A stretch of DNA of 64,000 nt, from the IMG/VR virus record IMGVR_UViG_3300029319_000016, positions 1 through 64,000 of that record, one strand, 5' to 3'. Each line of letters starts with the position of its first letter. Within the stretch, counting starts at the first letter, position 1. Positions 12,299 to 28,857 of the stretch are shown one piece after another. The translations under genes and the position numbers were made by a program. The notes under the pieces are model-generated. The model was not told the origin of the DNA. It made no database searches and worked only from the letters and a program-made list of their open reading frames with translations. The stretch is from a virus.

Positions 12299-12796
12299 TT
12301 ACTCTACCTCTTCCACTGTTCCTGTAACTGTTAATGGTTGTGGCAAAGGTTGAAAGTTCTCTTGTGGTATTTTATTAGAATTAAAAGGTTTTCCATCAAC
12401 AGGAATGGCTATTGTAATATGTGGAAACTTTACTTTTTTAGAAATCGGAGCAGGTGGTTCGACTTTAGCAGCCATTGCTTTATCATCAAAACCAATATGT
12501 GTTACTTGCAACAACACTTGTCCACCAACAGGATAATCAGCACTAAAGTCATGCTTTCCTTTTGGATGAACAATAGGCGAGAAAGGCACAATTGTCATAT
12601 GGTGTGGCAAAGGAGCACCAGCTTTTGTTTCGTGAACAAAACCTTCAGGTACGCCAAACTCAATAGCAGCTTGTTTTAAAGCTTCTACACTTTGAGGGTC
12701 AAGAACAACTCCGGAATAAGAAACTTTTCCTTCACTTAAAACAGCATCAAGTTCTTCTTTAATTATTCTTCTTAATTGTTGATTCGTTATTTGCAT
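12299..12796 (-). CDS. Tagged 2H phosphoesterase
   Basis: I place the start at 12796 (MQITNQQLRRIIKEEL), preceded by GGAG; an upstream ATG at 12823 in the same frame has no site and would bury the tag. The protein has 165 residues. The tag ends L-S-E at 20-22. After it come SYSGVVLD (26-33), HHMTI and FPHITIAI, giving two H-x-T-I motifs about 60 residues apart, the hallmark of 2H phosphoesterases, which cleave 2',3'- or other cyclic phosphodiesters. Known phage members include Acb1, which degrades CBASS cyclic nucleotides. Whether this one does so is unknown. The tag suggests packaging in the capsid, and the gene abuts the protease gene. Confidence 0.75.
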   Translation of the reverse strand: MQITNQQLRRIIKEELDAVLSEGKVSYSGVVLDPQSVEALKQAAIEFGVPEGFVHETKAGAPLPHHMTIVPFSPIVHPKGKHDFSADYPVGGQVLLQVTHIGFDDKAMAAKVEPPAPISKKVKFPHITIAIPVDGKPFNSNKIPQENFQPLPQPLTVTGTVEEVE

Positions 12797-12879
12797 TATT
12801 TTCTCCATTAAATGCGGGCGCAACCCGCGTGAGTCAGCTGCCTGAACAGCAACGACGAACTGGTTGTAGCATCCATTTT
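12797..12879 (-). other. GC-rich structured spacer
   Basis: This gap is about 58 per cent G+C across 12808-12876, far above its surroundings. On the coding strand it can form two hairpins: GTTGCTG/CAGC-T-GAC around TTCAGG (12833-12853) and GCGGG/CCCGC around TTGCG (12814-12828). No T run follows, so it is not a classical terminator. It also contains a 22-codon open frame starting at 12876 that lacks a ribosome binding site. A regulatory RNA structure or a foreign fragment are both possible. Confidence 0.45.
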
Positions 12880-13194
12880 TTATTCATCTTTATCTCCAAT
12901 TTTTGAAATACGAAAGCCAAAATCATCAACCAACATAGAGATTAGATAAGATGTTCCAGCAGAAATCCAACCGCAAATAAAAAAATTAGCGATTGTATAA
13001 TCAAATGTAAATAGTTCCGTCCACTTGTTAATGCAAAATAAAAAACAACCAACCCAAAAGCCTATACACAAAGGACAATGAAAAAGTGTGTTCCATTTCT
13101 TTGTGTAATCTTTTTCAGGTCGAAAATCTTCAAATATTTTACCGTAAACAAGAATAAAAGTCAAACCATAAGCGGCAAGTATAAAATTTATCAT
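12880..13194 (-). CDS. Small membrane protein, CPLCIGFW motif
   Basis: A 104-residue protein with three likely membrane segments, near residues 3-19, 41-56 and 68-88. The motif H-C-P-L-C-I-G-F-W-V-G at about 39-49 resembles the CPFC-x-GFW motif of small DUF1360-type membrane proteins. I infer location in the host inner membrane; the function is unknown. It lies 7 nt after the metalloprotease-like gene and is followed by the GC-rich spacer. It could equally be a superinfection or lysis-modifying protein. Confidence 0.6.
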   Translation of the reverse strand: MINFILAAYGLTFILVYGKIFEDFRPEKDYTKKWNTLFHCPLCIGFWVGCFLFCINKWTELFTFDYTIANFFICGWISAGTSYLISMLVDDFGFRISKIGDKDE

Positions 13195-13201
13195 CTAACA
13201 C

Positions 13202-14347
13202 CTATTTTAAAAATCCATATCTTTTGTCAACATAATTTATAATATTACTTTCAAATTTACTTATAAGATTTGAAGCTGTAGTCCAGCTTTCTTCAAGATT
13301 TACTTCATCAATGCCTAGGTTTGCTAATTTCATAAAAAGATCATCATTGTGATCATTCATCATATTTATGTAATCATCTAATCTAGATGAAAAATGTTTT
13401 TTAATTAGATCTTTTCTGTTTACTTTTTTTCCACTTTTTCTCAAAATAACTAGTTCTTTGTCTGCTAATAGTGTTGCTTTTCTAGTAAACCCAACTGCAT
13501 ATGCTTCTATCTCAACTGGCTGTAAGTAGTACAATACATACTTTTGTGCCTCAGTTGAAGCAGAATACGCTTTAAGTAATTTTTTAAAATCCTCTACACT
13601 TTCTTTTAAAATTTTATCATATTGTTCTTTATAGGATTCTTTCTCTTTCTTTGTAACTAAATTATAGAAAAAATCTGTAATTTTTTTTCCAATAGATTTT
13701 GTAGTGTTGTTTAGCATTTTCAATCTTTTTGACGGGTCTTTTTCTTTTATTATTTTATCATATAAGTCAATCGTTTTGTCAAAACCTGATCCTTTTATAT
13801 TTTGTAGTGAATGTTCTATTTCGTGTCTAACGTTTTCTTGTAATGTAATTTTAATCTTATTCAACACACCAAGATTGTTGTTAACTGATCTTTTGTTGTC
13901 ACTACCTTTAATTTGTTTTTCACTAGTTTTGTCCCAACCTATTGTATGTTCAAAGTCAATCTTCAAAGTTTGCTTACCAGGCATCCAGCCAGCACCAGGA
14001 GATTTTAAGACAAATTTATTTTTATTACCACCACTTAGTTCTTTAAAAGTTAATTTATAGTTTTTTATAAGTTTCAAATATTTTGAGTTTTTCAACTTTT
14101 TTAGACGACGTTTCATAAAATTGTTAAAGTTTTTTTCTGAATAGAAAGATGGTCCAAAATTTTCAGCAGTTAGCTCACCACCTGGATCGCCATCTGGGAC
14201 TTGATCTTTTCGGCTTATAATTTCTTTATGCTGAGCTTTTATCATAAGGGCCAAAAAGTCTATTACACTTTTAACAATGACACCAGCTTCTCTATCACCA
14301 GATCGAGCTTCATTTAATTTTAATTTTTTTATTATTTTTATTTTCAT
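13202..14347 (-). CDS. HExxH metalloprotease-like protein with short tag
   Basis: A 381-residue basic protein. Near residues 175-184 it reads NVRHEIEHSLQ, an H-E-x-x-H zinc protease motif. About 100 residues later YLQPVEIEAYAVGF offers an acidic residue as a third zinc ligand, the order seen in gluzincin-type peptidases. The first 13 residues (MKIKIIKKLKLNE) form a short basic helix that ends in L-N-E, a possible gp21 cleavage site. Residues about 200-260 are Lys-rich. The start overlaps the previous stop as TAATG. A protease carried in the virion is my reading; the motif alone does not prove activity. Confidence 0.6.
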   Translation of the reverse strand: MKIKIIKKLKLNEARSGDREAGVIVKSVIDFLALMIKAQHKEIISRKDQVPDGDPGGELTAENFGPSFYSEKNFNNFMKRRLKKLKNSKYLKLIKNYKLTFKELSGGNKNKFVLKSPGAGWMPGKQTLKIDFEHTIGWDKTSEKQIKGSDNKRSVNNNLGVLNKIKITLQENVRHEIEHSLQNIKGSGFDKTIDLYDKIIKEKDPSKRLKMLNNTTKSIGKKITDFFYNLVTKKEKESYKEQYDKILKESVEDFKKLLKAYSASTEAQKYVLYYLQPVEIEAYAVGFTRKATLLADKELVILRKSGKKVNRKDLIKKHFSSRLDDYINMMNDHNDDLFMKLANLGIDEVNLEESWTTASNLISKFESNIINYVDKRYGFLK

Positions 14348-15030
14348 TAATATGTATACCTTCCATAGAGGTATGGAGCAAACATATTGTGTTGCAAAAT
14401 TGAACCCTTTTCTTCAGAGTGTGGAACTTCACCTAGTTCTGTTGAGTTTTCATTATCAGGTTCTAGTTGAGCATCTTGCATTATATCATCATGGCCTTTT
14501 TTCATCTTTGATGATGGAATTTCTGATTTTATCCATTCTGACAATTGATAAACTGTGGATTTTATTGGATCTCTTTCTTTTGATTCGTGTATCTTGCCTT
14601 CAAGAGAACCATAAACATTACCACCTTGGATTGAATCGTATTCAATTACACCATTTTTTCTCATCCATTCCATTAAACGTGACTCCGCACCATAAACAAC
14701 TTCAGACATTAAGTCTTTTGGAAACGCAACAATCTTCTTTTTCTCAACCATTAGGACTATGTCAATGTCTGCATGATCAAAAATAAGTAAATCACCATTA
14801 AGAGCTTTACGTATGTTCATTTCAAATTTAGTTTTTCTTTCATTTGGATTGTTAATTTTAACACCGATTGGTCCTGGTGTAAAACGAACTTCGGTATCTC
14901 CTTTTATTTTAACATCCAAATCTCTTTCTTCTGGTTCTGTTTTCACATTGACACTAGTAGGAGTCCGAATGTCAATCCCAAGATCTTCTTCTAGCAGGTC
15001 TGAAATTATGTTTTGTGGTTTTTTATACAT
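14347..15030 (-). CDS. Conserved-looking unknown in head gene cluster
   Basis: A 227-residue protein with no family I can name. Residues about 32-65 hold alternating charged beta segments (VNVKTEPEERDLDVKIKG, then VRFTPGPIGVKINNP). A section near 80-130 (ALNGDLLIFDHADIDIVLMV, FPKDLMSEVVYGAESRLMEW) looks globular, and the C-terminus ends in an aromatic motif (FAPYLYGRYTY) that could dock to a partner. It starts one codon after the previous stop and overlaps the next gene, so it is translated with the portal-protease cluster. I expect a virion or assembly protein. Confidence 0.5.
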   Translation of the reverse strand: MYKKPQNIISDLLEEDLGIDIRTPTSVNVKTEPEERDLDVKIKGDTEVRFTPGPIGVKINNPNERKTKFEMNIRKALNGDLLIFDHADIDIVLMVEKKKIVAFPKDLMSEVVYGAESRLMEWMRKNGVIEYDSIQGGNVYGSLEGKIHESKERDPIKSTVYQLSEWIKSEIPSSKMKKGHDDIMQDAQLEPDNENSTELGEVPHSEEKGSILQHNMFAPYLYGRYTY

Positions 15031-15825
15031 TTATTTAATCTCCGATAATAGTTGTTGAATGTGAAAGACATCTTTAACTACTTCCTCGGTTAAAGGTTTC
15101 TTTTTAAAGTTTTCAAGTTTTTCTTTAACTAGTTTTATCTTATCAGACCACTGCCCTTCGCTTAAATTTTCACATTGTTCTCTTAATCTTGCAATTTCTT
15201 CGTTCATAAACGTTTTAAGCCCAAGTCCATTATCAGAAAAAGACGTAATGTAGTTAGTCAAAAGATCTCTCTGTTCTTTTAAAAGAGACTCCTTATATGT
15301 ATCATTAAATTTATTAACAAAGGTACTATAAGTAAGACTATCTATTGTCTTCAATTTTTGCTCTTTAATCGCTTGAGGATGCGAAATAACAAGTGTTTTG
15401 ACCCTTTCCTCTATCAATAGACGGGTTTTTGCTTTAAGACCATTAGAATTGAAATACTGTCCAACTGTTGCTATTGATTTATAATTGGGAATAAAATTAC
15501 CAAATGCCTCTGGGATGTTGTGATTAAACTCTTTGATTAGACTGGTTTGTTCATTAAAAATTTCTTTTCTGTCTAAAGCTTCCCAGTCTTCTTTTACTTC
15601 TTTCATGTAACGAAGTCCAAGAGATTCTTCAAGTTTTTGAGGTTCCATTAACTGTTTATACAATTGGAGATCGTTGTAAAGAGGCTTTCCTTTTGAGAAA
15701 TATCTCTTAAGTGTCTCAACAATTTGTTGTTTCTTTTGAAGCTCTCCTCTTACAACAGCCTTGGTCATTTCTTTGATTAGGCATTCGTAAAGAAAAGCGG
15801 TATTTCTTTTCTTATTATGTTTCAT
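15031..15825 (-). CDS. Unknown helical protein between portal and protease genes
   Basis: A 264-residue, largely helical protein (MKHNKKRNTAFLYECLIKEM, many Leu/Lys/Glu heptads, C-terminal VVKDVFHIQQLLSEI). No catalytic motif or membrane segment is seen. The C-terminus ends in L-S-E-I-K. Its place between the tagged genes and the protease suggests a head component, perhaps a core or neck factor, and a good ribosome binding site (AAGGAG) precedes it. T4 has no obvious counterpart at this position. Confidence 0.5.
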   Translation of the reverse strand: MKHNKKRNTAFLYECLIKEMTKAVVRGELQKKQQIVETLKRYFSKGKPLYNDLQLYKQLMEPQKLEESLGLRYMKEVKEDWEALDRKEIFNEQTSLIKEFNHNIPEAFGNFIPNYKSIATVGQYFNSNGLKAKTRLLIEERVKTLVISHPQAIKEQKLKTIDSLTYSTFVNKFNDTYKESLLKEQRDLLTNYITSFSDNGLGLKTFMNEEIARLREQCENLSEGQWSDKIKLVKEKLENFKKKPLTEEVVKDVFHIQQLLSEIK

Positions 15826-15839
15826 TTGTTTCTCCTTTA

Positions 15840-16226
15840 TTACTTTCTATAAAAATCTTTTCTTCGTCTACTAAGACCATCATATCTGTATCCTACACCT
15901 ATCGCTTGAGCCACAGCTCTACGCATCATTGAGAGTTTACCTTGCATTTCTCTTCCATATTCCATTTCTTCACTACTAGTACCTCTGTGAAATACACCTG
16001 CTGATTTTATCCTGTTATTTAAGATTTTTAACAAATCCATTGCTTTAAAATGCTCTGGTGAGCCGTCAATTATATTAGGGTTGTCACTTAAAAATTGCAT
16101 ACAGTGTCTATACAAGTCTTCATTAGAAAATTCATGAGGAAGTCCTAATCCTACTTGCATTTCTTGAAGTGTTTTTTCTAACTCTTCTTTTATTACTTGT
16201 CTTAGTTGTTTATTGGTTATTTTCAT
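15840..16226 (-). CDS. Tagged protein of unknown function
   Basis: A 128-residue protein. Residues 1-22 (MKITNKQLRQVIKEELEKTL, then Q-E) are the shared tag, with L20-Q-E22 as the candidate prohead protease site. The remaining 106 residues (GLPHEFSNEDLYRHCMQFLS, DLLKILNNRI, AVAQAIGVGYRYDGLSRRRK) are helical with a basic end, which would suit contact with DNA. I recognise no domain. It is the third of three consecutive tagged genes after the portal. Confidence 0.6.
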   Translation of the reverse strand: MKITNKQLRQVIKEELEKTLQEMQVGLGLPHEFSNEDLYRHCMQFLSDNPNIIDGSPEHFKAMDLLKILNNRIKSAGVFHRGTSSEEMEYGREMQGKLSMMRRAVAQAIGVGYRYDGLSRRRKDFYRK

Positions 16227-16240
16227 TATTTTTTGTCCTT

Positions 16241-16765
16241 TTATAGTATACCTGCTTTTTTTAAAATTGCTTGAATTCCCTGTTCAGGAATGCTTGGAAA
16301 TTCAGTTTTTAGTTTTTCTATTACTTCTTCTACTGGTGTTCCTCTAAAATGTAAATCCCAAGCATAAGCAGCAGCAGACTTTATTCTTATTACTCTCGGT
16401 CTGCTGAGGCCGGGCATTCCAAACTTCCTGTGTATTTTATCAACATAATCAAAAACCAATCGAGCTTCTTTAACTTTTTCAACATCGCTACCTCGATTAG
16501 TATAATCATCAACATAATAGTCCATGGCTCTTTGAGTCATGTTTTTTGCATTAACTTCATTAACATTCACAGTACTGCTTGTGTTCTTTATCATTTTTCC
16601 TCGAAACAAACCAACACCATAGCTACTCATCATCAGATGAACCCAACACCTACGCAAAGCTATGGCGGTTTCAGGAGTAATCCCTTCATCTTCTCCAATC
16701 TCTAAGAGTAAGTTTTCTACTTCTTCTTTAATAATTTGTTTTAATTGTTTATTAGTTATCTTCAT
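16241..16765 (-). CDS. Tagged protein of unknown function
   Basis: A 174-residue protein. The start at 16765 is chosen over 16789 because TTAGGAGA precedes it and because it puts the tag (MKITNKQLKQIIKEEVENLL, then L-E) at the N-terminus; L20-L-E22 is the candidate cleavage site. The body is helical: TPETAIALRRCWVHLMMSSY, a linker, VEKVKEARLVFDYVDKIHRKF, and a final PEQGIQAILKKAGIL. No enzyme motif is visible. The first bases of the gene lie 10 nt after the previous stop. Confidence 0.6.
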   Translation of the reverse strand: MKITNKQLKQIIKEEVENLLLEIGEDEGITPETAIALRRCWVHLMMSSYGVGLFRGKMIKNTSSTVNVNEVNAKNMTQRAMDYYVDDYTNRGSDVEKVKEARLVFDYVDKIHRKFGMPGLSRPRVIRIKSAAAYAWDLHFRGTPVEEVIEKLKTEFPSIPEQGIQAILKKAGIL

Positions 16766-16775
16766 TTTTTTTCTC

Positions 16776-17129
16776 CTAAGATCCGCCATAAGTTTTCATG
16801 GCATAAACAATCATTAATCGTTCTTTAATCTCACCATTTAACAACTGCATGTCAAGTTCACTTAATCCATATGAATTAATCTTTGCTTGTTCAGCTATTG
16901 TTGCAAAGATCAATCTTCTAAGTGAACCATCATTAGCACCTATCCTCATCGCGTAGTGACTTCTAAATGCATCATCATCTTTCATTAACTCTATGACATG
17001 AGGATGTGCCATCAAAGCCTCAACACAATCTCTAGTAAAAAGTTTTTCTGCCTCTGACAACTCTTCTTTGAGAACTTTTTGTAATTCTTCTTTAATTATT
17101 TGTTTTATTTGTTTCTTAGTTATCTTCAT
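16776..17129 (-). CDS. Tagged protein of unknown function
   Basis: A 117-residue protein with the tag MKITKKQIKQIIKEELQKVL followed by K-E; L20-K-E22 is the candidate gp21 site. The 95-residue body is helical (FTRDCVEALMAHPHVIELMK, AFRSHYAMRIGANDGSLRRL, KERLMIVYAMKTYGGS). The function is unknown. Its ATG overlaps the portal stop codon (ATGA), so it is translationally coupled to the portal, an essential head protein. This supports a head-related role. Confidence 0.6.
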   Translation of the reverse strand: MKITKKQIKQIIKEELQKVLKEELSEAEKLFTRDCVEALMAHPHVIELMKDDDAFRSHYAMRIGANDGSLRRLIFATIAEQAKINSYGLSELDMQLLNGEIKERLMIVYAMKTYGGS

Positions 17130-19078
17130 TCTGTTTTTTCCTTTACGTTTAATGACTCGATAAGTATTTCCACTTCGCGAGACACAGTTTCTAATTTTTG
17201 TTCTTCTTCTAAATAACCACCAGCAGCTTGAGATAGTGAGTATTCATTTCCAACGTAGCCTTTATAAATGTTACGACCTGTGGATCTTGCTGTTTCAATT
17301 CCTGTGGAGCCGAGCATAGATTTTTTCATGCCGCCTTTATCATAAGATGATCTATGTCTCTTGTATGGGCCTCGTTTAGATGGAACATCAACATATCCTG
17401 GTGAGTCATCCCGCTTCGCAGAGGGTTCGGCGAGCAGATCAGTGTCACCCCCTTCGTCGCCGCCGACATCACCTCCGCCGGTGTCTCCACCGCCAAGATC
17501 TCCTCCAAGGTCTCCACCAAGCTCACCACCTAGATCTCCACCTGCTTCATCGCCACCACCTCCACCGAGGTCGCCAAGTCCACCAGCAAGGCCGCCGCCT
17601 CCACCAGCATCTTCACCAGCTTCTCCACCAGTTGCAGCGGCTTCAAGCTTGGCTCCAAATTTTTTGTCAAAGAACATTTCTCGTTGATTGCGAAGAAATT
17701 CATCTTCTGATAAGCCAAACATGTTTTCAGCGATCCAGCGTTTTGAAAAGTAACCTTCAGTTGCATTACCAGCAACAGAAAACTTTTTATCCCAATGTTC
17801 AAGTTCTTGTAGTTCAGCAATTTTAGATGGATTATTTAGCTGTAATTTAAATGTTAATAAATCATCGTTTCTATAACCAAGAGTATAAAGATGTATAATA
17901 CCAATTTTTTCTAGTTCAGAAATAGCAACACGTTGAAGTCTTTGTATAGTCCTAGCAAAACGAATATCTTTTTGTGCTAATGTAGTTTTATCTTCTGTTG
18001 CTCCTTCTCCCATAGTTAGGTATGATTGTGGTATTTTTAGAGCAGCAAACAATTTGTCTCTGAGATACTTGACATCATCGATACCACCATTATAAGAAGC
18101 TCCTGGGAGACTGCTTATGTCAGTAGCTGATTGTCCTCCACGAATTGGTACATAATAATCTTCTTCAATTGATAAAGGATTATAGCGTAAGTCAACCCGA
18201 CCTGTTTTTGGATCAACAATAGAGTGTCTTTTTAACTGTGTCATAACTTTTTGCATGTACTGTTCAACTTCCTGTGGAGGAATACCACCAACGTCAATTT
18301 TAAATAAACGACGCTCAGGAGCACGAACAATTCTGTATGCCATCATGGCATCTTCTAATAGTATAAGTTGACGGTGAATGCGTCTACAAGCTTCGAGAAC
18401 TGATGTTCCGTAAGGAGCATGCTTATCATTACCAAGGATTCTGAAGTGGGCAACTTGCCAATTCTCCAGAGTTAGTCCTGCTGTGTTCCACTGGTACTGG
18501 ACGTAATTAGGATTACTTTGGTCCTCTCCTTCTAGACGTTCGATCTCTCTAGTAGGTAGCCCTATTGCAGATCGAATTCCCATATCCTCATCAATGTCAA
18601 GATATAGAAAGAAATCACCGTACTTACACATTGTTCTTGCCCAACCAAAAAGATTGTGTTCGATGTTTAAAACATTGTGATACAAATTATGGAGGATATG
18701 TTTAATTTCTTCGTTCGCACACTTAATGTTAAGCATTGGACGAAGAGCTGTATGGGTTGTCATTTCATCTGCATAAATGTCTAAAGATGAAGCTATCTCT
18801 GGCATGTATTCCATTTCATCAAAATCAACATAACGTTCAGCTCTATTTCTATTTGAAATCATGTTGAGCGTTACAGAGTTTATTGGGTTATATTCCCATT
18901 TTTTAAATTGAGCACCTGTAGCTGATTTGAATTTTGTAGCATAATTATCTAATTGCCGTCTACGTAACATACGACCTGTTTGTGTCCTGCGTTGCGTAAT
19001 TGGACCTGAGAACAGTTTTGTTAAAGCCTTAAATAAATCCGATTGCGGGTTATAAGGCGACTTTTTATATTTTGCCAT
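17126..19078 (-). CDS. 20: Portal vertex protein, gp20-like
   Basis: A 650-residue portal. The family pattern is clear: YNPINSVTLNMISNRNRAERY, EMEYMPEIASSLDIYADEMT, VAHFRILGNDKHAPYGTSVL, EDAMMAYRIVRAPERRLF and YLRDKLFAALKIPQSYL. Portals form the dodecameric ring at one capsid vertex through which DNA is packaged and ejected, and nucleate the prohead. Compared with T4 gp20 (524 residues) this protein is longer, mainly because of a Gly/Asp-rich segment at about 480-546 and a C-terminal extension. The gene follows a sigma70-type promoter and also a CTATTTA motif, 18 nt before the start. Confidence 0.93.
   Translation of the reverse strand: MAKYKKSPYNPQSDLFKALTKLFSGPITQRRTQTGRMLRRRQLDNYATKFKSATGAQFKKWEYNPINSVTLNMISNRNRAERYVDFDEMEYMPEIASSLDIYADEMTTHTALRPMLNIKCANEEIKHILHNLYHNVLNIEHNLFGWARTMCKYGDFFLYLDIDEDMGIRSAIGLPTREIERLEGEDQSNPNYVQYQWNTAGLTLENWQVAHFRILGNDKHAPYGTSVLEACRRIHRQLILLEDAMMAYRIVRAPERRLFKIDVGGIPPQEVEQYMQKVMTQLKRHSIVDPKTGRVDLRYNPLSIEEDYYVPIRGGQSATDISSLPGASYNGGIDDVKYLRDKLFAALKIPQSYLTMGEGATEDKTTLAQKDIRFARTIQRLQRVAISELEKIGIIHLYTLGYRNDDLLTFKLQLNNPSKIAELQELEHWDKKFSVAGNATEGYFSKRWIAENMFGLSEDEFLRNQREMFFDKKFGAKLEAAATGGEAGEDAGGGGGLAGGLGDLGGGGGDEAGGDLGGELGGDLGGDLGGGDTGGGDVGGDEGGDTDLLAEPSAKRDDSPGYVDVPSKRGPYKRHRSSYDKGGMKKSMLGSTGIETARSTGRNIYKGYVGNEYSLSQAAGGYLEEEQKLETVSREVEILIESLNVKEKTE
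17440..17640 (-). repeat. Gly/Asp-rich low-complexity repeat in portal gene
   Basis: Codons for repeated GGD, GGE and GGG units encode residues about 480-546 of the portal. The DNA is locally GC-rich (gg-t/a units) and unlike the rest of the gene. The segment is probably a flexible linker. Confidence 0.8.
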
Positions 19079-19096
19079 GGTTCATCCTTTTCGTAA

Positions 19097-19103
19097 TAAA
19101 TAG
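19097..19103 (-). promoter_or_regulatory. Candidate late promoter motif before portal
   Basis: The coding strand reads GAACTATTTATTACG, 18 nt before the portal start and just downstream of a sigma70-type -10 box. Confidence 0.5.
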
Positions 19104-19107
19104 TTCT

Positions 19108-19136: not shown

Positions 19137-19137
19137 G

Positions 19138-20724
19138 CTAGCCTTTAAAAATCCAAGCAAAGTCTTTATATGTTTTTTCAAAATCTTCAAAAGCTTCTTG
19201 AGTTTTGTTTCCTACATACCCACGCATACCTTTTATTGATGTATTCATAGTCGTTTGAGAAGACTTAATAGAAGTAACCATAGCCTCTTGATACATCCGA
19301 TCTTTCTCAGATACTTCAAGAGCAGTGTCTCGAACCCAACAAGCAATCGCTAGAGACATTATTAAGTCATCATGATACGATCTCATAGCTTGAGGCTTTC
19401 CATTGTTCCAGATAAAAGTTTTTACTTCATGAAACAAACGAGAGGACTTTGGTTTGACCAATTTATTTCTTATATATTCTTCTAGTTTAGCAACTATAAG
19501 AGGTCTTGTCTTTGTTGATGTTGTAAATCCGATAACTGCTCTGTCATTGTATTCGCCTTCTAAAGAGTCAACATATTCATGTGTAGATTTGATTGAGTAA
19601 TAAAGATTTGGATACCCAAGATCTCTTACTTTCTCACAAGCTGCTATGCCTATACCTACATTTTCAATAACCATGAGACAGTTACCATATTCTTTACCAG
19701 CATCAAATAAAATTTTAGCAAAATGATCCATAGTTGGTTTACCTTGATATTCAGCTACTACACTCATTGTATCTGTTCTTAGTATGTGAAAGACAGATGA
19801 GTCAGCTCCATCGCCACGAGCCACATCAGCAACCATAAGATAGGGAACACCTTCTTGATATTTTTCCCAGATCCATAAATTTCTGTCCCAGCTTGTCTTG
19901 TATTCTGGTTCTTGTTGATTTTCAAACAACCAGTGTATATCATCAGGATGTATCACAGTTTCACCAGAAGTGTTAAAGTTACACTCAAGCTCTTGTGCTA
20001 TTTGTCTTCTCGACATATTCTTAGTTTCTTTAACAAACCAATCTTCATCACGTTCAGGGTGAACATCCCAAGGTAAAGACACAGGGTGAAACTCATTATC
20101 TCCATTCTCTGCATCAACATAAGTTCTATGAAACCAGTTTCCAACTCCCATGGGTGTTGATAAAGCTATACAACGACCCCCTGTTGATAGAGTGGGGTAA
20201 AGACCTGCCCACAGATCATCAAGACCGTCAACGTGTGCTGCCTCGTCTATAATCAATAAAGATAGGGCTTCCGAACGACCAGCATCTGCTGATGTTCCAA
20301 CAGCTTTGATTGTAGAACCATTGGATAATTCAAACGAAGTTCTGTTGTCAATAACGATACTGGCAACCTGCATCCATTTTGGCAAATTTTTCATTACCAT
20401 CTTTACTTTCTTTACTAAATTAGCTGCTGTTCCAAATTTGGTTGCCATGACCAAGATGTTCTTTTCTTTATGAAACAACATAAACCAAACAGCATAAGCT
20501 GCCGAAATAGTAGAAATACCAAGCTGCCTTGCTTTAAGAATAACTGTGAAGCGATAATCATTAAAGTCTTTGACTAATTGGTCTTGGTAAGGATAGGTGT
20601 TAAAAGGGATTAAACCCTTGAGTGGGTGAGAGATCCGACAATAATTATTTATAAAGTATAATGGATCTTTTCCGCACTTAAGGATTTCTTTTATTATTTC
20701 TTGCTTTGATAGCTTGAGGGTCAT
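19138..20724 (-). CDS. 17: Terminase large subunit, gp17-like
   Basis: A 528-residue packaging motor. The N-terminal ATPase shows Walker A-type KARQLGIST at residues 64-72, Walker B LLIIDE at 156-161 and coupling motif LSTP at 188-191. The C-terminal RNase H-like nuclease shows D300 in VADVARGDG, E355 in VIENVG and a late acidic HDDLIMSLA near 455. The enzyme binds the portal, pumps DNA into the prohead and cuts the concatemer. Its ATG overlaps the stop of the preceding gene (TAATG). T4 gp17 has 610 residues, so this one is compact. Confidence 0.96.
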   Translation of the reverse strand: MTLKLSKQEIIKEILKCGKDPLYFINNYCRISHPLKGLIPFNTYPYQDQLVKDFNDYRFTVILKARQLGISTISAAYAVWFMLFHKEKNILVMATKFGTAANLVKKVKMVMKNLPKWMQVASIVIDNRTSFELSNGSTIKAVGTSADAGRSEALSLLIIDEAAHVDGLDDLWAGLYPTLSTGGRCIALSTPMGVGNWFHRTYVDAENGDNEFHPVSLPWDVHPERDEDWFVKETKNMSRRQIAQELECNFNTSGETVIHPDDIHWLFENQQEPEYKTSWDRNLWIWEKYQEGVPYLMVADVARGDGADSSVFHILRTDTMSVVAEYQGKPTMDHFAKILFDAGKEYGNCLMVIENVGIGIAACEKVRDLGYPNLYYSIKSTHEYVDSLEGEYNDRAVIGFTTSTKTRPLIVAKLEEYIRNKLVKPKSSRLFHEVKTFIWNNGKPQAMRSYHDDLIMSLAIACWVRDTALEVSEKDRMYQEAMVTSIKSSQTTMNTSIKGMRGYVGNKTQEAFEDFEKTYKDFAWIFKG

Positions 20725-21657: not shown

Positions 21658-22288
21658 AATCCCACCTTTCTGAATTGCCATATTTCTCCTCATCAGTTTC
21701 GTGTGTTGTTCTCTCAGGTGAATCCATGTCTCTATAAACTTTCATCCAGTATGGAGTTTCTAAATTCTTTGGACTTAAAGAATTGTCTAAGAACCTCATC
21801 TTGTTGTTTGGACCACAGCACAACACACCATCATGATCGTCAAAAAAATAAGTTTTTGTTTTATGTTCGTGCCAACATTCAGATTGCCCATGATCATTTA
21901 CATCTCTTGGTCTCTGAGGGTCACAAGTCCAAAGATAAGTCCCTTCCCATTTGTGCCCTGCTCTGTTGAACATTTCTACATCTATTCCTCGAAGTCCTTG
22001 GATCTGTGTCATTTGCCAGTAGTCTGAAATACAATCCCACCAAGCCACATCAGGCATTTTAATTTCTTTATTTGGTGTTTCTTTTCTGTTAAAGATGGCA
22101 CACTGATCTACTTTATCATAGAAAGCTCCCATTGACGGAAGATAAACTAAATAAAGCGGTGCTCTACCTCTAATAAATCTTATTGCGTGTAAAACGCCAA
22201 AAATAGTTTCGTCTTTTCCATAATTTGGATCACCTGATAAAAAAGACTTTTTAACATAACATTCGGTATAAGGTGTTGATACGATCAC
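21644..22288 (-). CDS. Conserved-looking unknown with GTG start
   Basis: A 214-residue protein. The start is GTG, overlapping the upstream stop (GTGA), with AGGAG seven bases before. The N-terminus (YVKKSFLSGDPNYGKDETIFGV, shown here as YVKKSFLSGDPNYGK) and RFIRGRAPLYLVYLPSMGAF look like a well-folded, Trp- and Tyr-rich domain; Cys and His residues (WTCDPQ, ECWHEHK, CCG) could bind metal. I recall similar proteins near terminases of marine T4-like phages but no function. It is part of a tightly overlapping run leading into the terminase. Confidence 0.6.
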   Translation of the reverse strand: MIVSTPYTECYVKKSFLSGDPNYGKDETIFGVLHAIRFIRGRAPLYLVYLPSMGAFYDKVDQCAIFNRKETPNKEIKMPDVAWWDCISDYWQMTQIQGLRGIDVEMFNRAGHKWEGTYLWTCDPQRPRDVNDHGQSECWHEHKTKTYFFDDHDGVLCCGPNNKMRFLDNSLSPKNLETPYWMKVYRDMDSPERTTHETDEEKYGNSERWDYEKE

Positions 22289-23343
22289 GGATCACTCCTA
22301 GCTTTTCTTATTGCCCTACTGATATCTGTAGGATTTTTTATATCTTTTATTCCTAATTCTCTTTGTGCTCTAGAGACATTAATATTTGACGATAGGCTTG
22401 CTACTTCATCACTGGTAGTTATTATCTCTTTAACGTGCGAATACATATTAAAGAAAGCTGTTATTAACTGCCTAGTATCATCGATAGCTGTGTGTAGCTG
22501 AATGTAATCAGGTCCCGGACCATAAACATCCATCATTCTTTGTAGTTTTCCGTTAAAAGAAATAATTGTTTTTATTTCACCATTTACTTCTTTCTCTTTT
22601 TCGTCAAAAAATTTAACCAACCTTCTGTCGCCTTTACTTGCTTCATATTCTGCTATTCCTTTAAGAACTTGTCTTTGAAAATTAACTGTGTCGAAGATGT
22701 CGATTTGTTGAAAAGAAGTTGTGTCAATTCCAAGAGCTTCACCTTCTTTGATTATTTTATTTCTATCAAAAGTTTTTATATTGTGACCAACAGATACGAC
22801 ATTAGGACCTAGTGCTTCAACCCAAGCAAGAAACTCTTCCATGGCTTCATACTCATCTCTATCATCTTCTCTTGTTTGATAGTTTGTGTAACCAATCATA
22901 TCAGCAACAGTATAAGGTCTACCTTCTTCTTTTTCTTTTTGAACCTTTAATAAAAAATCAACCTCTCTTGTGACCTGACCTGTTCTTTCATACTCATCAA
23001 AAATCTCCTCGGCCCTATCAATCATGTCTTGCTGTGCAATATACTTTTCTAATGTTTCTTGATTTAAGGCAACATTGACATCAAACTCTGCTATTGGTTG
23101 TTCGGGAATAGGCCCATCGATATCATCAATTTTAAAAGCAATTGCTCCATACTGAGTTATTTGTCCATCAAAACCTATACTTTCCAAATCCCAAAAGAAC
23201 CATGTCTTTCCATTTAATTCTCTTCTCATGTATTCGAGTACATCGCCGGGGGTCATGTCTCTTAATAAAGATAAATCTTCCATAAGAACTTTTTTTAATT
23301 CTTCTTTTATCATTTTCATGACATCTTTTTTTGTTATTGCCAT
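22285..23343 (-). CDS. Tagged DnaQ-like (DEDD) 3'-5' exonuclease
   Basis: A 352-residue protein. The start at 23343 puts the tag (MAITKKDVMKMIKEELKKVL, then M-E) first, giving L20-M-E22; the longer frame to 23409 has no support. The nuclease fold follows: motif I FFWDLES with D52 and E54, motif II GHNIKTFD near 187-194 and motif III HTAIDD near 283-288, together the DEDDh set of DnaQ/RNase T enzymes. It would degrade single strands of DNA or RNA from the 3' end. A region at 95-165 is an insertion of charged helices. The tag implies a nuclease carried into the capsid. Confidence 0.8.
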   Translation of the reverse strand: MAITKKDVMKMIKEELKKVLMEDLSLLRDMTPGDVLEYMRRELNGKTWFFWDLESIGFDGQITQYGAIAFKIDDIDGPIPEQPIAEFDVNVALNQETLEKYIAQQDMIDRAEEIFDEYERTGQVTREVDFLLKVQKEKEEGRPYTVADMIGYTNYQTREDDRDEYEAMEEFLAWVEALGPNVVSVGHNIKTFDRNKIIKEGEALGIDTTSFQQIDIFDTVNFQRQVLKGIAEYEASKGDRRLVKFFDEKEKEVNGEIKTIISFNGKLQRMMDVYGPGPDYIQLHTAIDDTRQLITAFFNMYSHVKEIITTSDEVASLSSNINVSRAQRELGIKDIKNPTDISRAIRKARSDP

Positions 23344-23732
23344 CAATTCACCGCCTGTGCAATTGCTATTGTAATTCCTACTCCAGTAAATAGTCCAAAA
23401 GAAAACCAAAATTTCTTTTTTGGTGGTGTTTTTAACTGTTCTAAACCTTTTATTCTTTCTTCCAAAGCTTGAACTTCTGCTTCGAGTGTCCCTCTATCGA
23501 GTTTGTGTTGGGACTTAAGTTTGTTTATTTCTTGCTCTTTGTCTGCAAGAAGTATACCAATCTGATAATCCATTTCTATTTGACATCTGTCTGTTGCATC
23601 TGCTATTTGATCGGCTAATAGTTGTGATGCTGTGTCGTTAAACAAACGACCAGAAAACGGAGCTTCCATTCCTTTTTCAAGATAGGTATATTCAGGTGCG
23701 TCTGCAAATGCTAAAGATAGTAAAAAAATCAT
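23343..23732 (-). CDS. Secreted coiled-coil protein with C-terminal membrane segment
   Basis: A 129-residue protein. The N-terminus (MIFLLSLAFADA) looks like a short signal peptide with a signal peptidase I site after ADA. Residues about 55-97 are a coiled coil (IGILLADKEQEINKLKSQHK and the following heptads), and residues about 108-127 are a membrane segment (FWFSFGLFTGVGITIAIAQA). This topology, periplasmic with an inner-membrane anchor, resembles spanin-type lysis proteins, although there is no lipobox Cys. Start and upstream stop overlap as ATGA. It lies three genes after the holin candidate. Confidence 0.5.
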   Translation of the reverse strand: MIFLLSLAFADAPEYTYLEKGMEAPFSGRLFNDTASQLLADQIADATDRCQIEMDYQIGILLADKEQEINKLKSQHKLDRGTLEAEVQALEERIKGLEQLKTPPKKKFWFSFGLFTGVGITIAIAQAVN

Positions 23733-24355
23733 ATTGTTTTAATCCTTCCTTTTAAACAGGGTAATGTTGTAATATTTTTTTTGCGATACCCTTTAGTAAA
23801 CGGAGATCTAAGAAATGCAGGTTTCATTTTATCAGATTTTTCAAATTGATCTATTTCATATGGCCAGAGCTCTAAAGAATCAAAAAATGTATTTTGTTCT
23901 GCGTTGTCTATATTTGAAGGTGTTAATAAGTTACTTTCGGTATCAAGTTGGAATTGTTCATAATCATTAGAAGAAGCATAATATCTCCACTGACTTCTGG
24001 CTTCTTCGCTAACTTGGTTCCTATCACATGCTAGATAGCTATCGTGTTCTACTACTAGTTCTGTTGCAATGTCATATATTAAAGCCCCAAAACCAGTATC
24101 ACGATATTCTCCATCAATTTCAGTCCAACCAATAACAAAACAAGGATTATAGTCCCTAGTTGCATGTAGCTCTCCTACTAAAGAATTATCCCATTTTCTT
24201 ATAGCATAAATTTTTATTGTATCTCGCTCACTTTTAATTTCAAAAATAAGATCATTTTTTTCAACTACTTTTAATCCTTGATTTATCTTATCATTTGCTT
24301 CTTCACAATAAACTTCAAGAATGAGATTGTGTAACTTTTTTGATGTTAATTTCAT
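23729..24355 (-). CDS. Tagged GNAT-like acetyltransferase
   Basis: A 208-residue protein. The first 16 residues (MKLTSKKLHNLILEVY) are a shortened form of the common tag, with I12-L-E14 as the possible protease site. Residues about 30-130 look like a GNAT fold: strands around VGELHATRD and FVIGWTEID, then the acetyl-CoA loop EYRDTGFGALIYDIA with the R/Q-x-x-G-x-G/A pattern (R85, G88, G90), then an Asp/Arg motif (LACDRNQVSEEA). GNATs move acetyl groups to amines of proteins or small molecules; the substrate is unknown. Its start overlaps the previous stop (ATGA). Confidence 0.6.
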   Translation of the reverse strand: MKLTSKKLHNLILEVYCEEANDKINQGLKVVEKNDLIFEIKSERDTIKIYAIRKWDNSLVGELHATRDYNPCFVIGWTEIDGEYRDTGFGALIYDIATELVVEHDSYLACDRNQVSEEARSQWRYYASSNDYEQFQLDTESNLLTPSNIDNAEQNTFFDSLELWPYEIDQFEKSDKMKPAFLRSPFTKGYRKKNITTLPCLKGRIKTI

Positions 24356-24687: not shown

Positions 24688-24689
24688 GA

Positions 24690-24965
24690 CTAACCACCGT
24701 GTCGCCACATTTTAGCAAAGTCAACAGCGGTTTGTCCACCGATGTACATCATAGCAATCATTCCCCAAGTTTCAGGGTCTAGTTGTGCATTCCACAATAA
24801 AGCTGTTGCTGATACAAACACAAGCAGCTTACGAGAGATCGCTTTCTCTTGTAAAGCATCAAGAATACCTTTTTGTTTGTTATCGAGATATAATTGTTGT
24901 TTTAATTTTTCTTTTTTTTCTTGTTCCATTTTTTCTCCTGCCTGTAAAAACTCTTCTCTGGTCAT
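24690..24965 (-). CDS. Putative holin
   Basis: A 91-residue protein with a charged N-terminal helix (residues 1-43) and two close membrane segments, near 46-60 (KLLVFVSATALLWNA) and 67-85 (WGMIAMMYIGGQTAVDFAKM), ending in a short basic tail. Size, hairpin topology and the adjacent coiled-coil membrane gene fit a holin that permeabilises the inner membrane at lysis. The start overlaps the previous stop by one base (TAATG). No endolysin is recognisable nearby, so the call is based on topology alone. Confidence 0.5.
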   Translation of the reverse strand: MTREEFLQAGEKMEQEKKEKLKQQLYLDNKQKGILDALQEKAISRKLLVFVSATALLWNAQLDPETWGMIAMMYIGGQTAVDFAKMWRHGG

Positions 24966-25285
24966 TAACTTTCCTTTAAGATTTGCATAACTCTTTCTGT
25001 AATATAATCTGCATGCTCAGGACTTTCTTCGGCAACATAGTGATAGATATCATTTTCAAACATATGTCCAAAGCCTTGCTTAATCATTGGTGCAAGGTGC
25101 ATAAATTTGCTGACGGTCTGCATAATAATTCCACCAACATAGTCATAGTCAGGATGATCAGGTCCCATTCCTACTGTCATTCCACTGAAGGAGTCCATAG
25201 GAGGTTCCATGCCCATCATTTCATTCATGACTTTGTTAAGCTCTTCTTTGATAATTTGTTTAATTTGTTTATTTGTTAATTTCAT
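24965..25285 (-). CDS. Tagged protein of unknown function
   Basis: A 106-residue protein with tag MKLTNKQIKQIIKEELNKVM, then N-E, so M20-N-E22 stands where the others have L-x-E. A Met-rich linker follows (EMMGMEPPMDSFSGMTVGMG), then a helical body (IIMQTVSKFMHLAPMIKQGF and the C-terminal ITERVMQILKES). No domain is recognised. A double CTATTTA motif lies before it, directly after the fused SbcCD nuclease gene, which has its own sigma70 promoter. The two genes therefore seem to be switched on separately. Confidence 0.6.
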   Translation of the reverse strand: MKLTNKQIKQIIKEELNKVMNEMMGMEPPMDSFSGMTVGMGPDHPDYDYVGGIIMQTVSKFMHLAPMIKQGFGHMFENDIYHYVAEESPEHADYITERVMQILKES

Positions 25286-25304
25286 TTTTAATCTCCATAA
25301 AATG

Positions 25305-25338
25305 AAAGCCTAAATAGCTTTTACACTAAATAGGCTTT
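25305..25338 (-). promoter_or_regulatory. Inverted repeat holding two late-promoter motifs
   Basis: AAAGCCTA and TAGGCTTT (8 bp, 18-nt loop) flank the gap between SbcCD and the next tagged gene. CTATTTA occurs twice on the coding strand, at 25327-25333 and 25311-25317; the second is 25 nt before the start. The repeat could terminate the early nuclease transcript while the motif starts a late one. The T run is poor, so termination is uncertain. Confidence 0.45.
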
Positions 25339-25348
25339 TGAAAGAGAT

Positions 25349-28300
25349 TTAGCAGTTTACTTTTGCATAACCACCAACTTTCTGTATGTCGATGGTTCTA
25401 TCTACACAGTCTTTTAAAACATCGAGGTGAGAAATCAACAGAACGGTTTTAAACTTATCTTTTATCATGTCAATCAAACGAACAAAACCCTCCATGTGTT
25501 CCTGATCCAAAGCTGTGGCAGGTTCATCCATGATAAATAGAGTGGACTTAGGCAAGTTGGTTATCTCAATTAGAGCAAGACGTATAGCCATAGCTGCAAT
25601 AGTTTTCTCAGCACCTGATCCCATAGATATAGGTCGAGAGTCATACTTCGGATGCTTAATATTGATATCTAAATTACGACCATCTTCTTCAAACATAACT
25701 TGAAAATCAACAATGTTTGCAAGGCATTTTTGAATTTCCTCGTTTATAAGAGATAATTTTTGTTTGATTATTTCGTAAGCAATTCCATTTGGATGCATAC
25801 AACGCATGAATAACTCATAGGCTATAAAAGATTCTTCGAGTTCATCTTGCTCTCTCTTTTCAACATGAAGTCTCTTAATGGTACTCTTAACAGCACCAAG
25901 TTCAACAAGATAATCTTGGATCTTTTTATCACATTTTTCTTTTCTTTGTTTAGCTTCTGTCATTTTTGTTTTGACAGCGTTCTTGGATTTAATAAGAGAC
26001 GACAGATTCTCAATTGCTTGACGATTTGCATTGTATTCATCTCTTTGTTGTTCAAGAGAACCTTTTTGATTAGTCATGAGAGAGATCTTTGATATGATTG
26101 ATTCATTTGTTATTTCTAAATTATGATTTTTGGCTAAAAAACTTTTGCGCTTGTCAACATTCTTCTCCAGAACTTCTAGTTCTTTTTCAGCGACTTCTTT
26201 ATCTAATCCATAAATCTTTAATTTATATCCATCAATTATCTTTTCAACCTCTTCTATTTCTTCTTCAAGAGTCGGAAGATAATCTTTAGCTTTTGTAGCA
26301 TCTTTAACAAACTTATTATTAGAACAATATTCACAATCAGGATCATACTCATGGTCATGAAGCATGTTAATCTTTTTAATAGATTGTTTTTCTATTGTTT
26401 TAAGCTTCTTGAGCTCCTGTTGTGAGTCTTTTAAAGACTCTTCAAACACCTTACACTGTTCTATGATTTGCGTGAGTCTATGCTTGTTTATGGAGCTTAC
26501 AATGTCATCAGCTTGTTGGATGGCAAGTTCGTTTTGCTTTATCTGTTGTTTGTTTTCAGATACTTTTACACCAGCTTTGTGTATTTGTACGTCAAGCCGA
26601 TCAATCTCATCTTCTAATTCATCGATGTCAATAATATTTTGAGGAATAGAATTAATCTCTTCTTCTATCTTTAAAAACTCTTCAAGTAATTCTTCATAGC
26701 GATTGTTGTGTTTTTTGCACAAATCTGTTTGATGGTCTATATCATCGTTAATTTCTTCTATCTCTTCTTGTTTGGCTACTAATAGTTCTGCTATCTTTTT
26801 ACTTTTAAACCTTTTGATCAAAGTGGAGATTTCTGAGGAGTCTTTCTTTGCAAAGTTTAATTTTTGATCAAAGATGTCTAAGTCGAGAAACTTAGCTAGT
26901 TTATTCTTTCTTTTTGTTGAACCTTCTTTAATGAACGCAAGAGAATCTAACTGCGAAGCCATTGATGTGATCATAAAGTCTTCTATGTTTCCGAAGATCT
27001 TTCTTATGTTGGCCTCAGTATCTTTTACAGAATCGCCGTTACAAGAACTATTGGTAGTGAGATTGTGGAAATCAAGATCACCAGAGGCCACAGGGATGGA
27101 CTTTCCTCGTTGGGTTTTATAAGATTTATTGAGATTCCGAGTAATTTGATAGTCTTGACCGTCTGCTTCGACCACCATCTTGATAGAGGCTTTAGTTTTG
27201 TTTTGATTGACGAGGTGAACGTTTTTCTTCTCGGCTTTGCTGGTTCCGCCATAAATGCCATAAAGAGCAGAATCAATAACAGAAGACTTCCCACTGTAGT
27301 TTTTGCCAAAAATGCCAACGATTCCAGAAAGATTTGCAAAATCCAAAGAATTACTTTGTCCATAGTTAAATAAATTTGAGAACTGCATCTCTTTAATATT
27401 CCATTTGACGTTTCTTCGGACTTCTTCAACCTTCTCTACCTCTTTATTATACTTAGTATTGAGATCAAGCACTTGACTCATCAAGTCCTCATCTAGATCA
27501 TAATCTTTTAAATAATCACGAATATATCTTTCTTGAACAGAAACATCACGCATGTTTTCCATTTTGTGTTCTTGTCCGTCTGAGGATGTGAAATTAGACG
27601 TTCCTTTATTTAAGAAGGACAAAGACACCGGATTGTATTTAGAACGTGCTAAATCGGTAATCTTGCGTATGGAAGAGCTATCCATGTTAACAGTCGAGAT
27701 TAATCGAAGACGACAACCATGAGGAACATGATAATGTTGAGGTATCTTTCCTTTGTCATCTAAATTAATTGTAATAAAAGGTCGGGGATTGGTAAAGATA
27801 ACATGTTGAACATCAAAATCATCTTTAGATCTAATTGTCCAAAGCTTATAGCCTTTTCTTCCGTCCTCCGAAAAATTCTGCTGAATTGTAGAGCCAGCAT
27901 ATTGAGCACGACCTTCTTCATCTAAAATCTGTGGTTTGTGAATGTCACCAAGCATAACAAAATCGTGACCTTTAAAAATCTCTATGTCATCATCGCCATG
28001 TTCCATAGCCCAACCTGATCCTGTTTTAGAACCCATAATTGCACCATGATAAAGAGCAATGTTAATGTCACCAGTTTTTGGCCTCATCCAAGCTCCTCTA
28101 TCAAAGATTGATAAGACATTTAATGATAATCCTACTTGAGGAGATACACGACCAGAGTTTTTTAATAGATGCAAATCAGGATGGTTCAATGCGTTAACAA
28201 TAGGAGACACAGCATCTTCCCTATCTGAGTTCTTTAGATTACCGTCATGGTTTCCAAGAATGATATAAGTTGGCGCAATGTCTGCTAGGTTTTTTAAGAA

Positions 28301-28489
28301 CTCAGAAGCCAAAGCAAAATACTCTGGTGACAACTGAGTTTTTGTGTGAGCCAAATCACCACAATGAACAATATAGTCAGGTTTTTGGCTTAGTAATTTT
28401 TTATAAATCTGATTAAATACAAATCTGTATTCATCATGAAATTTAAGATTACGAATATGTGTATCCGCAAAGTGTGCGATCTTAATCAT
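25349..28489 (-). CDS. Fused SbcD-SbcC (gp47-gp46, Mre11-Rad50) nuclease
   Basis: One 1046-residue protein holds both subunits. The N-terminal metallophosphoesterase shows D9-x-H11, GD at 44-45 and GNHD at 79-82, as in Mre11/SbcD/gp47. A linker with an adapter region leads to a Rad50/SbcC ATPase: Walker A GKNYSGKSS near 394-402, long coiled-coil arms, zinc hook C-E-Y-C near 718, signature SMGSGAEKT near 960 and Walker B LFIMDEPATALD near 980-991. In T4 the two are separate genes and process DNA ends for recombination-dependent replication and host DNA breakdown. It has its own consensus sigma70 promoter. Confidence 0.93.
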   Translation of the reverse strand: MIKIAHFADTHIRNLKFHDEYRFVFNQIYKKLLSQKPDYIVHCGDLAHTKTQLSPEYFALASEFLKNLADIAPTYIILGNHDGNLKNSDREDAVSPIVNALNHPDLHLLKNSGRVSPQVGLSLNVLSIFDRGAWMRPKTGDINIALYHGAIMGSKTGSGWAMEHGDDDIEIFKGHDFVMLGDIHKPQILDEEGRAQYAGSTIQQNFSEDGRKGYKLWTIRSKDDFDVQHVIFTNPRPFITINLDDKGKIPQHYHVPHGCRLRLISTVNMDSSSIRKITDLARSKYNPVSLSFLNKGTSNFTSSDGQEHKMENMRDVSVQERYIRDYLKDYDLDEDLMSQVLDLNTKYNKEVEKVEEVRRNVKWNIKEMQFSNLFNYGQSNSLDFANLSGIVGIFGKNYSGKSSVIDSALYGIYGGTSKAEKKNVHLVNQNKTKASIKMVVEADGQDYQITRNLNKSYKTQRGKSIPVASGDLDFHNLTTNSSCNGDSVKDTEANIRKIFGNIEDFMITSMASQLDSLAFIKEGSTKRKNKLAKFLDLDIFDQKLNFAKKDSSEISTLIKRFKSKKIAELLVAKQEEIEEINDDIDHQTDLCKKHNNRYEELLEEFLKIEEEINSIPQNIIDIDELEDEIDRLDVQIHKAGVKVSENKQQIKQNELAIQQADDIVSSINKHRLTQIIEQCKVFEESLKDSQQELKKLKTIEKQSIKKINMLHDHEYDPDCEYCSNNKFVKDATKAKDYLPTLEEEIEEVEKIIDGYKLKIYGLDKEVAEKELEVLEKNVDKRKSFLAKNHNLEITNESIISKISLMTNQKGSLEQQRDEYNANRQAIENLSSLIKSKNAVKTKMTEAKQRKEKCDKKIQDYLVELGAVKSTIKRLHVEKREQDELEESFIAYELFMRCMHPNGIAYEIIKQKLSLINEEIQKCLANIVDFQVMFEEDGRNLDINIKHPKYDSRPISMGSGAEKTIAAMAIRLALIEITNLPKSTLFIMDEPATALDQEHMEGFVRLIDMIKDKFKTVLLISHLDVLKDCVDRTIDIQKVGGYAKVNC

Positions 28490-28518
28490 AAATCCTCCGT
28501 AATTAATTAAGTATTTTT

Positions 28519-28547
28519 ATTATAACACATTACGAAAGATTTGTCAA
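28519..28547 (-). promoter_or_regulatory. Sigma70-type promoter before SbcCD
   Basis: TTGACA (28547-28542), 17-nt spacer, TATAAT (28524-28519), both perfect, followed by GGAGG and the start at 28489. Confidence 0.88.
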
Positions 28548-28548
28548 G

Positions 28549-28857
28549 TTATTTTTTTGGTACGTGTCTCATATCTCCGGAAGATTGCGCTCTTCTCAAA
28601 TAAGTTCTAACAAGATCAGCTTCTTGGTATCCATACTCTGTTTCAAACTTTTCAATGTTCTTGGGATTAAAAACATGTCTTCTCTGAAGTCTTCCAGTTT
28701 TTCCAAGATCAAGACCTGTTGAAGGAAATTGTAAAAAACCCATGTATTTTCTAAATGCTTGAAACATTCTTTCCTGATGATGAAGACCTTCTCTCATCTT
28801 GATTAAGCCCAACTCTTCTTTAATTATTCTTTTTAATTCTGTGTTTGTTATTTTCAT
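28549..28857 (-). CDS. Tagged protein of unknown function
   Basis: A 102-residue basic protein. The tag is MKITNTELKRIIKEELGLIK; the acidic site is shifted by one residue to M21-R-E23. The body (LHHQERMFQAFRKYMGFLQF, GRLQRRHVFNPKNIEKFE, DLVRTYLRRAQSSGDM) is Arg-rich and could bind DNA. The function is unknown. It stands between primase and SbcCD but has a CTATTTA motif 20 nt before its start rather than a sigma70 promoter. Confidence 0.6.
   Translation of the reverse strand: MKITNTELKRIIKEELGLIKMREGLHHQERMFQAFRKYMGFLQFPSTGLDLGKTGRLQRRHVFNPKNIEKFETEYGYQEADLVRTYLRRAQSSGDMRHVPKK

Follow-up and report, generated by a model that had tools for sequence, protein, structure and literature searches.

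Why seven genes of a single virus, whose products have unrelated bodies, should all begin with nearly the same peptide is the question raised by the first 64 kb of the IMG/VR record IMGVR_UViG_3300029319_000016. This record is 88 kb long and derives from an uncultured virus with its structural genes on the minus strand, and its first 64,000 nucleotides are called the window here. A preliminary description of the window proposed that the shared N-terminus, designated tag A below, is a capsid-targeting sequence that ends in a cleavage site for a prohead protease like gp21 of phage T4. This interpretation is supported by the present analysis, in which nearly all of its predictions that can be tested at the level of sequence have held. 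The support comes from a protease of the gp21 family encoded within the same operon, conservation that ends at the scissile Glu with L, M, I or V at P3, an [LI]-x-E site in the capsid protein, the exchange of tag A with a second tag (tag B), and the near-absence of the tag from 257 Gb of cellular genomes. It is therefore very likely that tags A and B are both capsid-targeting sequences of an uncultured marine T4-like lineage, whose tagged proteins would be docked in the prohead, clipped by a protease of the S77 family and ejected with the DNA.

All seven tagged open reading frames (ORFs) are present on the minus strand with the starts previously claimed for them (12796, 16226, 16765, 17129, 23343, 25285 and 28857), and the range described earlier begins at position 12299, with the 3′ end of the first of these genes. 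Copy 1 of tag A (MQITNQQLRRIIKEELDAVLSE) occupies 12731-12796 of gene 12299-12796, and copy 5 occupies 23278-23343 of gene 22285-23343. Copies 2 (16161-16226, gene 15840-16226), 3 (16700-16765, gene 16241-16765), 4 (17064-17129, gene 16776-17129) and 6 (25220-25285, gene 24965-25285) precede bodies to which no function is assigned. The reported L/M-x-E positions are correct as well, in that residues 20-22 read LSE, LQE, LLE, LKE, LME and MNE, and copy 7 (28789-28857, gene 28549-28857) has M21-R-E23 in a register that is one residue longer. Over residues 1-22, the seven copies have a mean pairwise identity of 58% in amino acids and 68% in bases. When two copies agree in a residue, they also agree in its codon in 154 of 245 comparisons, whereas independent draws from the codon usage of the phage would give 131, which indicates that the peptide rather than the DNA is under conservation, as had been suggested. 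Furthermore, a coding pattern for I-K-E-E-L has seven matches in the 88-kb record, all of them at these seven gene starts inside the window, compared with a single match for the reversed-pattern control. The tag is thus not a product of chance.

If the tag is a targeting peptide removed by a protease, then its conservation should stop at the cleavage site. Eighty related loci were fetched by means of their protease and, together with the window, yielded 141 ORFs that start with tag A, from 60 sources. After removal of similar bodies, 95 distinct bodies remained, and wider scans place tag A on at least 362. The alignment of tagged proteins from related genomes that the preliminary description had called for reveals unrelated bodies behind one N-terminus, and conservation falls to background straight after residue 22-23. 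Among the 95 bodies, the conserved positions of the tag each carry 2-5 bits of information and residue 22 (Glu) still carries 1.5 bits, after which the value is 0.5 bits at residue 23 and 0.1-0.3 bits further on. An [LIMV]-x-E motif ends at residues 21-23 in 82 of the 95, compared with 4% (maximum 8%) in equal windows within the bodies. A second and more distant set, comprising 238 distinct bodies from loci outside the first survey, carries [LIMV]xE at residues 18-27 in 63% of cases and downstream in 9-16%. At P3 of the junction Glu in this distant set, L is enriched 5.2-fold, M 3.7-fold, I 2.7-fold and V 1.5-fold, all other residues reach at most 1.2-fold, and [AGS]xE at the junction is without enrichment. 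This preference for L, M, I and weakly V is the specificity of gp21, as judged from the aligned junctions.

The protease itself, which the preliminary description had not located, is encoded at 11669-12298 (minus strand), directly downstream of the first tagged gene and in the same operon. Its match to peptidase S77 (PF03420, E=6.9e-33), at 114 bits against a curated cut-off of 27, identifies it as a prohead core protease of the T4 gp21 family. A site of the same kind is found in the major capsid protein (1-1711, minus strand, at the record edge). Every homologue of this protein with an intact N-terminus has an N-terminal extension that ends in a gp23-like site, [LIV][LI]x-E/[SA] (the slash marks the predicted cut), in which [LI]-x-E is invariant. 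In the window, this extension has 59 residues (1535-1711, minus strand), ends in KELLRE59/SN and corresponds to the gp23 propeptide, and we predict that it is a propeptide here as well.

A second tag, absent from the preliminary description and unrelated to tag A, begins two adjacent window genes that start at 30775 and 31293. It reads MSNQMKLIMESWRKKVL[QK]E, and its coding pattern has exactly two matches in the 88-kb record, both inside the window: copy 1 (MSNQMKLIMESWRKKVLQE) at 30719-30775 of gene 29876-30775 and copy 2 (MSNQMKLIMESWRKKVLKE) at 31237-31293 of gene 30805-31293, both on the minus strand. A pattern scan of IMG/VR found the tag B consensus, MKLIMENWR-x-[FY]-[LVI]-x-E, on at least 104 distinct bodies. 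Among the matches listed, 78 of 104 bodies have [LIMV]-x-E at the tag B junction, versus 6% within bodies.

Homologous bodies can carry either tag. A P-loop kinase has tag A in two loci (L053 and L003) and tag B in a third (L291), with 70% identity from just past the tag. Likewise, the 2H phosphoesterase that bears tag A in the window and in L053-L055 has a tag-B homologue in L291, and a tag-B protein of L330 is 52% identical to a tag-A protein of L076 across 190 residues. Tag A-like, tag B and truncated forms are also found among members of a family related to the 208-amino-acid protein encoded at 23729-24355 (minus strand), which has a truncated tag A (MKLTSKKLHNLILEVYCEE) and appears to be GNAT-like. 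These findings are hard to explain unless the tags share one job and the body has another, and on the evidence of these pairs the two tags are interchangeable in front of homologous bodies. The same exchange bears on the idea, prompted by clustered genes with similar starts, that the seven genes go back to one ancient ancestral gene, with bodies that have become too divergent to be recognized as related and an N-terminus that was kept by descent. Because tags are exchanged and because the bodies have unrelated folds (2H phosphoesterase, DEDDh exonuclease, P-loop kinase and GNAT), we reject common paralogy of the bodies and regard such an origin of the seven genes as extremely improbable.

The distribution of the tags was examined with coding patterns, since tblastn searches of phage isolates with the bare tags, which are short queries, gave nothing useful. 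The tag pattern has at least 120 matches in IMG/VR, and it occurs in six stretches in 257 Gb of bacterial and archaeal genomes, several of them in contigs of marine metagenome-assembled genomes. Three of five cellular genomes that hold the pattern also have S77. A match in Paenibacillus (L089) was dismissed as chance, being a short reading frame that lacks a cleavage site. Among 32 tag-bearing contigs, S77 is found in 20, including 12 of the 14 that are at least 120 kb long. Ten of the 12 tag-bearing contigs that lack S77 likewise lack gp23, and so are probably fragments without the head module. This linkage is relevant to the proposal that the tag sends proteins elsewhere in the infected cell, such as to the host RNA polymerase, the membrane or a replication compartment, with L-x-E being incidental. 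What favors that proposal is that the placement of tagged proteins in the capsid derives from sequence inference. However, it would not account for the specificity for L, M, I or V at P3 of the boundary Glu, for the same site in the capsid protein, for the linkage to S77, or for promoter-like sites that are common to head genes (see below), and we find it very improbable.

Some of the presumed cargo can be assigned a function. The body behind copy 1 (12299-12796) is 2H phosphoesterase-like, of the tRNA-ligase CPD/CNPase type, and has the two H-x-[ST] motifs of this class as H66-M-T68 and H126-x-T128, both invariant in five sequences. Support from its fold is weaker: the Pfam match to PF08302 (E=3e-4) is below the cut-off, and the CNPase structures that are its top Foldseek hits (E 3.5e-3) were obtained with a low-confidence model. 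The body behind copy 5 (22285-23343) resembles DEDDh 3′-5′ exonucleases. It has the DxE, the later Asp and the HxAxxD residues of this class, and D52, E54, D193/D218, H284 and D289 are invariant in seven orthologues together with L20 and E22 of the tag. TREX and ExoI are among its top Foldseek hits. By Pfam and structure comparison, the tagged bodies of relatives include P-loop kinases, GNAT acetyltransferases, an HD hydrolase, a match to a cytosine methylase and others, and one tag-B cargo matches M23 peptidase. The kinase, GNAT and CPD classes occur behind both tags. Most tagged bodies have no family match in these Pfam and structure comparisons, and PHROGs gave weak or generic matches only. 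It is plausible that the cargo functions in host takeover or counter-defence in the first moments of infection, and a link to tRNA repair or counter-defence might be drawn from the enzyme classes.

Two findings in relatives are worth recording in this regard. In one locus (L053:8780-9993), the tagged 2H phosphoesterase adjoins a tagged PNK-like P-loop kinase, and the same pair occurs with tag B in L291; by sequence, the pair resembles the two end-healing domains of fungal tRNA ligase. Another relative, the phage contig L297, encodes at 2212-2883 a protein that has tag B and is similar to HD-domain (p)ppGpp hydrolases. PF13328 matched one member of the tag-B set, which from its sequence we take to be this protein.

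The genes around the protease may point to a different role for some tagged proteins. The portal protein (T4 gp20 family, PF07230, E=3.5e-76) lies at 17126-19078, a putative large terminase, taken as such from its sequence and position, at 19138-20724, and a scaffold-like protein in the position of gp22, with LLQE/S, VLDE/S and further candidate sites, at 1730-2782, all on the minus strand. A 139-amino-acid core-like protein (11250-11669, minus strand) has a tag-like N-terminus (11598-11669, ending in LIKECIKEVIFE), also missing from the preliminary description, that is related to tag A and conserved in relatives, most of which end it in [IM]-F-E. This protein has 8 [LIM]xE sites versus 1.6 in its own shuffles. 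Similarly, a 264-amino-acid protein encoded between portal and protease (15031-15825, minus strand), with positional counterparts in L354 and L355, has 17 such sites versus 5.8 and is possibly a core protein. Such an excess is as expected for core proteins that get cut up.

Perhaps, then, the tag recruits assembly or core proteins that are clipped or shredded in the prohead core like T4 gp67 and gp22, and does not mark delivered effectors. One tagged gene often stands directly before the protease, which in T4 is the position of gp67/gp68. In several relatives (L014, L026 and L039) this pre-protease gene has an Ala/Lys-rich body start, and the 139-amino-acid neighbor joins a tag-like start to many [LIM]xE sites. 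However, the bodies are for the most part variable and accessory, and among them are enzymes that would be unexpected for a core scaffold (kinase, DEDDh exonuclease, GNAT, 2H phosphoesterase, HD hydrolase and methylase), and the conserved site is confined to the end of the tag. We therefore consider this explanation unlikely for the tagged proteins as a set, although some of them may be parts of the core and not ejected effectors. The same neighborhood has a bearing on whether the tag might target the tail or baseplate instead of the head. The M23 peptidase match of a tag-B cargo could be cited in favor of this, as the class is also found in tails. Nevertheless, a T4-type prohead protease acts inside the prohead, and the genes nearest to the tag cluster at 12-17 kb are those of the head module and not of the tail, such that we give tail targeting almost no credence.

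Several observations weigh against capsid targeting, or at least against its simplest form. At the expected place, 13 of the 95 bodies with tag A and 26 of the 104 with tag B (14-25%) have no clean site. AlphaFold renders the tag as a helix in two models (residues 5-22 and 5-19), which speaks for capsid targeting, but the tag has low confidence in both, and the hydrophobic moment of tag A does not clearly exceed that of shuffles (median p 0.165). The density of [LIM]xE in the scaffold alone is marginal relative to shuffles (p 0.06). Basicity was looked for in the cargo, and the cargo is not basic, at about -0.04 net charge per residue. With its 22 residues, tag A is longer than the N-terminus of T4 IPII/IPIII, which we read as MKTYQEFIAE/A, and has no recognizable sequence similarity to it. 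Among the tag-bearing contigs, one (G028) has gp23, about 5 kb from the contig end, and S77 was not found in it; a second contig without S77 (G021) has a weak gp23 match only. Finally, neither tag is present in 11 isolate genomes or records (T4, cyanophages, Pelagibacter and Flavobacterium phages, RM378 and others), the lineage being uncultured.

Capsid targeting nonetheless remains our favored explanation, and for the docking partner, the cleavage itself, packaging and ejection we infer the following course from the analogy with T4 (PMC9026906). During prohead assembly, the N-terminal and probably helical tag would dock its protein into the internal core, in which a gp22-like scaffold and core proteins are combined. 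Where the tag ends in [L/I/M]-x-E, the S77 protease of gp21 type would then cut after the Glu, and likewise at the propeptide of the major capsid protein. The cut tag peptide would leave, and the freed mature cargo would stay in the head with the DNA and later be ejected together with it. In this way, tagged proteins would probably enter the virus head, lose their tag inside it and be delivered to the next host cell. On balance, though with less assurance, we favor a broader view in which the lineage uses two interchangeable head zip-codes to preload its virions with fast-changing enzymes (RNA-end repair, exonuclease, acetyltransferase, nucleotide signaling and others), so that the packaged proteome, and probably an injected counter-defence arsenal, might be read directly from metagenomes.

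Other features of the region were recorded. Ribosomal protein bS21 (PF01165, E=2.8e-14) is encoded inside the head gene cluster at 11054-11260 (minus strand), and in Microcystis phage Mel-JY01 it likewise has an annotation close to the protease. In the window, the sequence CTATTTA occurs 13 times at a distance of 10-60 nucleotides upstream of a minus-strand gene start, versus 0.8 expected, including the sites at 2824, 11695, 19103, 28892, 30801, 31319, 33303 and 59390. Genes preceded by it include those for the portal, the scaffold and the 139-amino-acid protein and several tagged genes. It is probably a late-promoter element that differs from the TATAAATA of T4, and its presence upstream of both head and tagged genes suggests common late expression.

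Just upstream of the first tagged gene and the protease is a mini-ORF of 17 codons (12834-12887, minus strand), which encodes MNKKWMLQPVRRCCSGS and then a stop. Its peptide, W-x-[LI]-Q-P-V-R-x-C-C-[SK]-G-S followed by the stop, recurs in 77 of the 80 related loci, its coding DNA exists in 88 different versions that have many synonymous changes, and it looks like a conserved micropeptide. It is present in none of 11 isolate phage records and was not found in the open-access literature searched. A G+C-rich hairpin (GCGGGTTGCGCCCGC, 12814-12828, minus strand) comes after the mini-ORF and, in many relatives, precedes the ribosome-binding site of the tagged gene or the protease.

Capsid targeting in T4 is known for a handful of proteins. 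If our interpretation is true, searches for the two tags would reveal head-packaged proteins in general among abundant uncultured marine phages, and hundreds of proteins without a function could be tested for a part in early takeover or counter-defence. The exchange of unrelated tags before the same enzyme would also come close to an experiment, already carried out in nature, on the requirements of a capsid-targeting signal.

The system most readily compared is that of T4, another S77 phage, in which IPI, IPII, IPIII and the gp21-cut propeptide of Alt likewise place a short N-terminal tag with an [L/I]-x-E end on unrelated proteins. The first 10 residues of IPIII are required for its incorporation, and within the T4 capsid-targeting sequence positions 4 and 7 matter for targeting and positions 8 and 10 for cutting (PMC9026906). 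Tag B has an aromatic-x-x-aromatic-[LI]-x-E register in common with this sequence (W8..[FY]11-[LVI]12-x-E14 compared with Y4..F7-I8-A9-E10). Counted back from the Glu, both have aromatics at P7 and P4 and a branched residue at P3, although the residues differ. Unlike T4, this virus combines two tag families in one genome and has 9-10 tagged genes in 88 kb rather than three or four. Where it can be identified, the cargo is largely enzymatic and not basic, whereas the internal proteins of T4 are basic.

Propeptide sites in the giant phages phiKZ and SPN3US end in Glu with an S/A-type residue at P3, unlike the L, M, I or V seen here, where the propeptide is also one conserved tag common to unrelated proteins. 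In both of those phages, a diverged gp21-like protease removes propeptides from inner-body or ejection proteins that are packaged with the genome (PMC9026906). Polyvalent proteins and the head-packaged DarA/Hdf anti-restriction proteins of P1 (PMC5512222, PMC12810830) are likewise early effectors delivered by the virion and encoded near late genes, as we propose for the tagged proteins, and their domain types overlap with those described above. In contrast to those systems, which use many domains per large polypeptide or other routes into the head, small single-function proteins here carry one tag. A search of the open-access literature, which omits most subscription papers, gave no account of either tag sequence, of both tags occurring together and replacing one another, or of a cargo set this large and this enzymatic, and the tag motifs were met in no phage paper of that literature. 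These features would be the new part of a principle that T4 had already made known.

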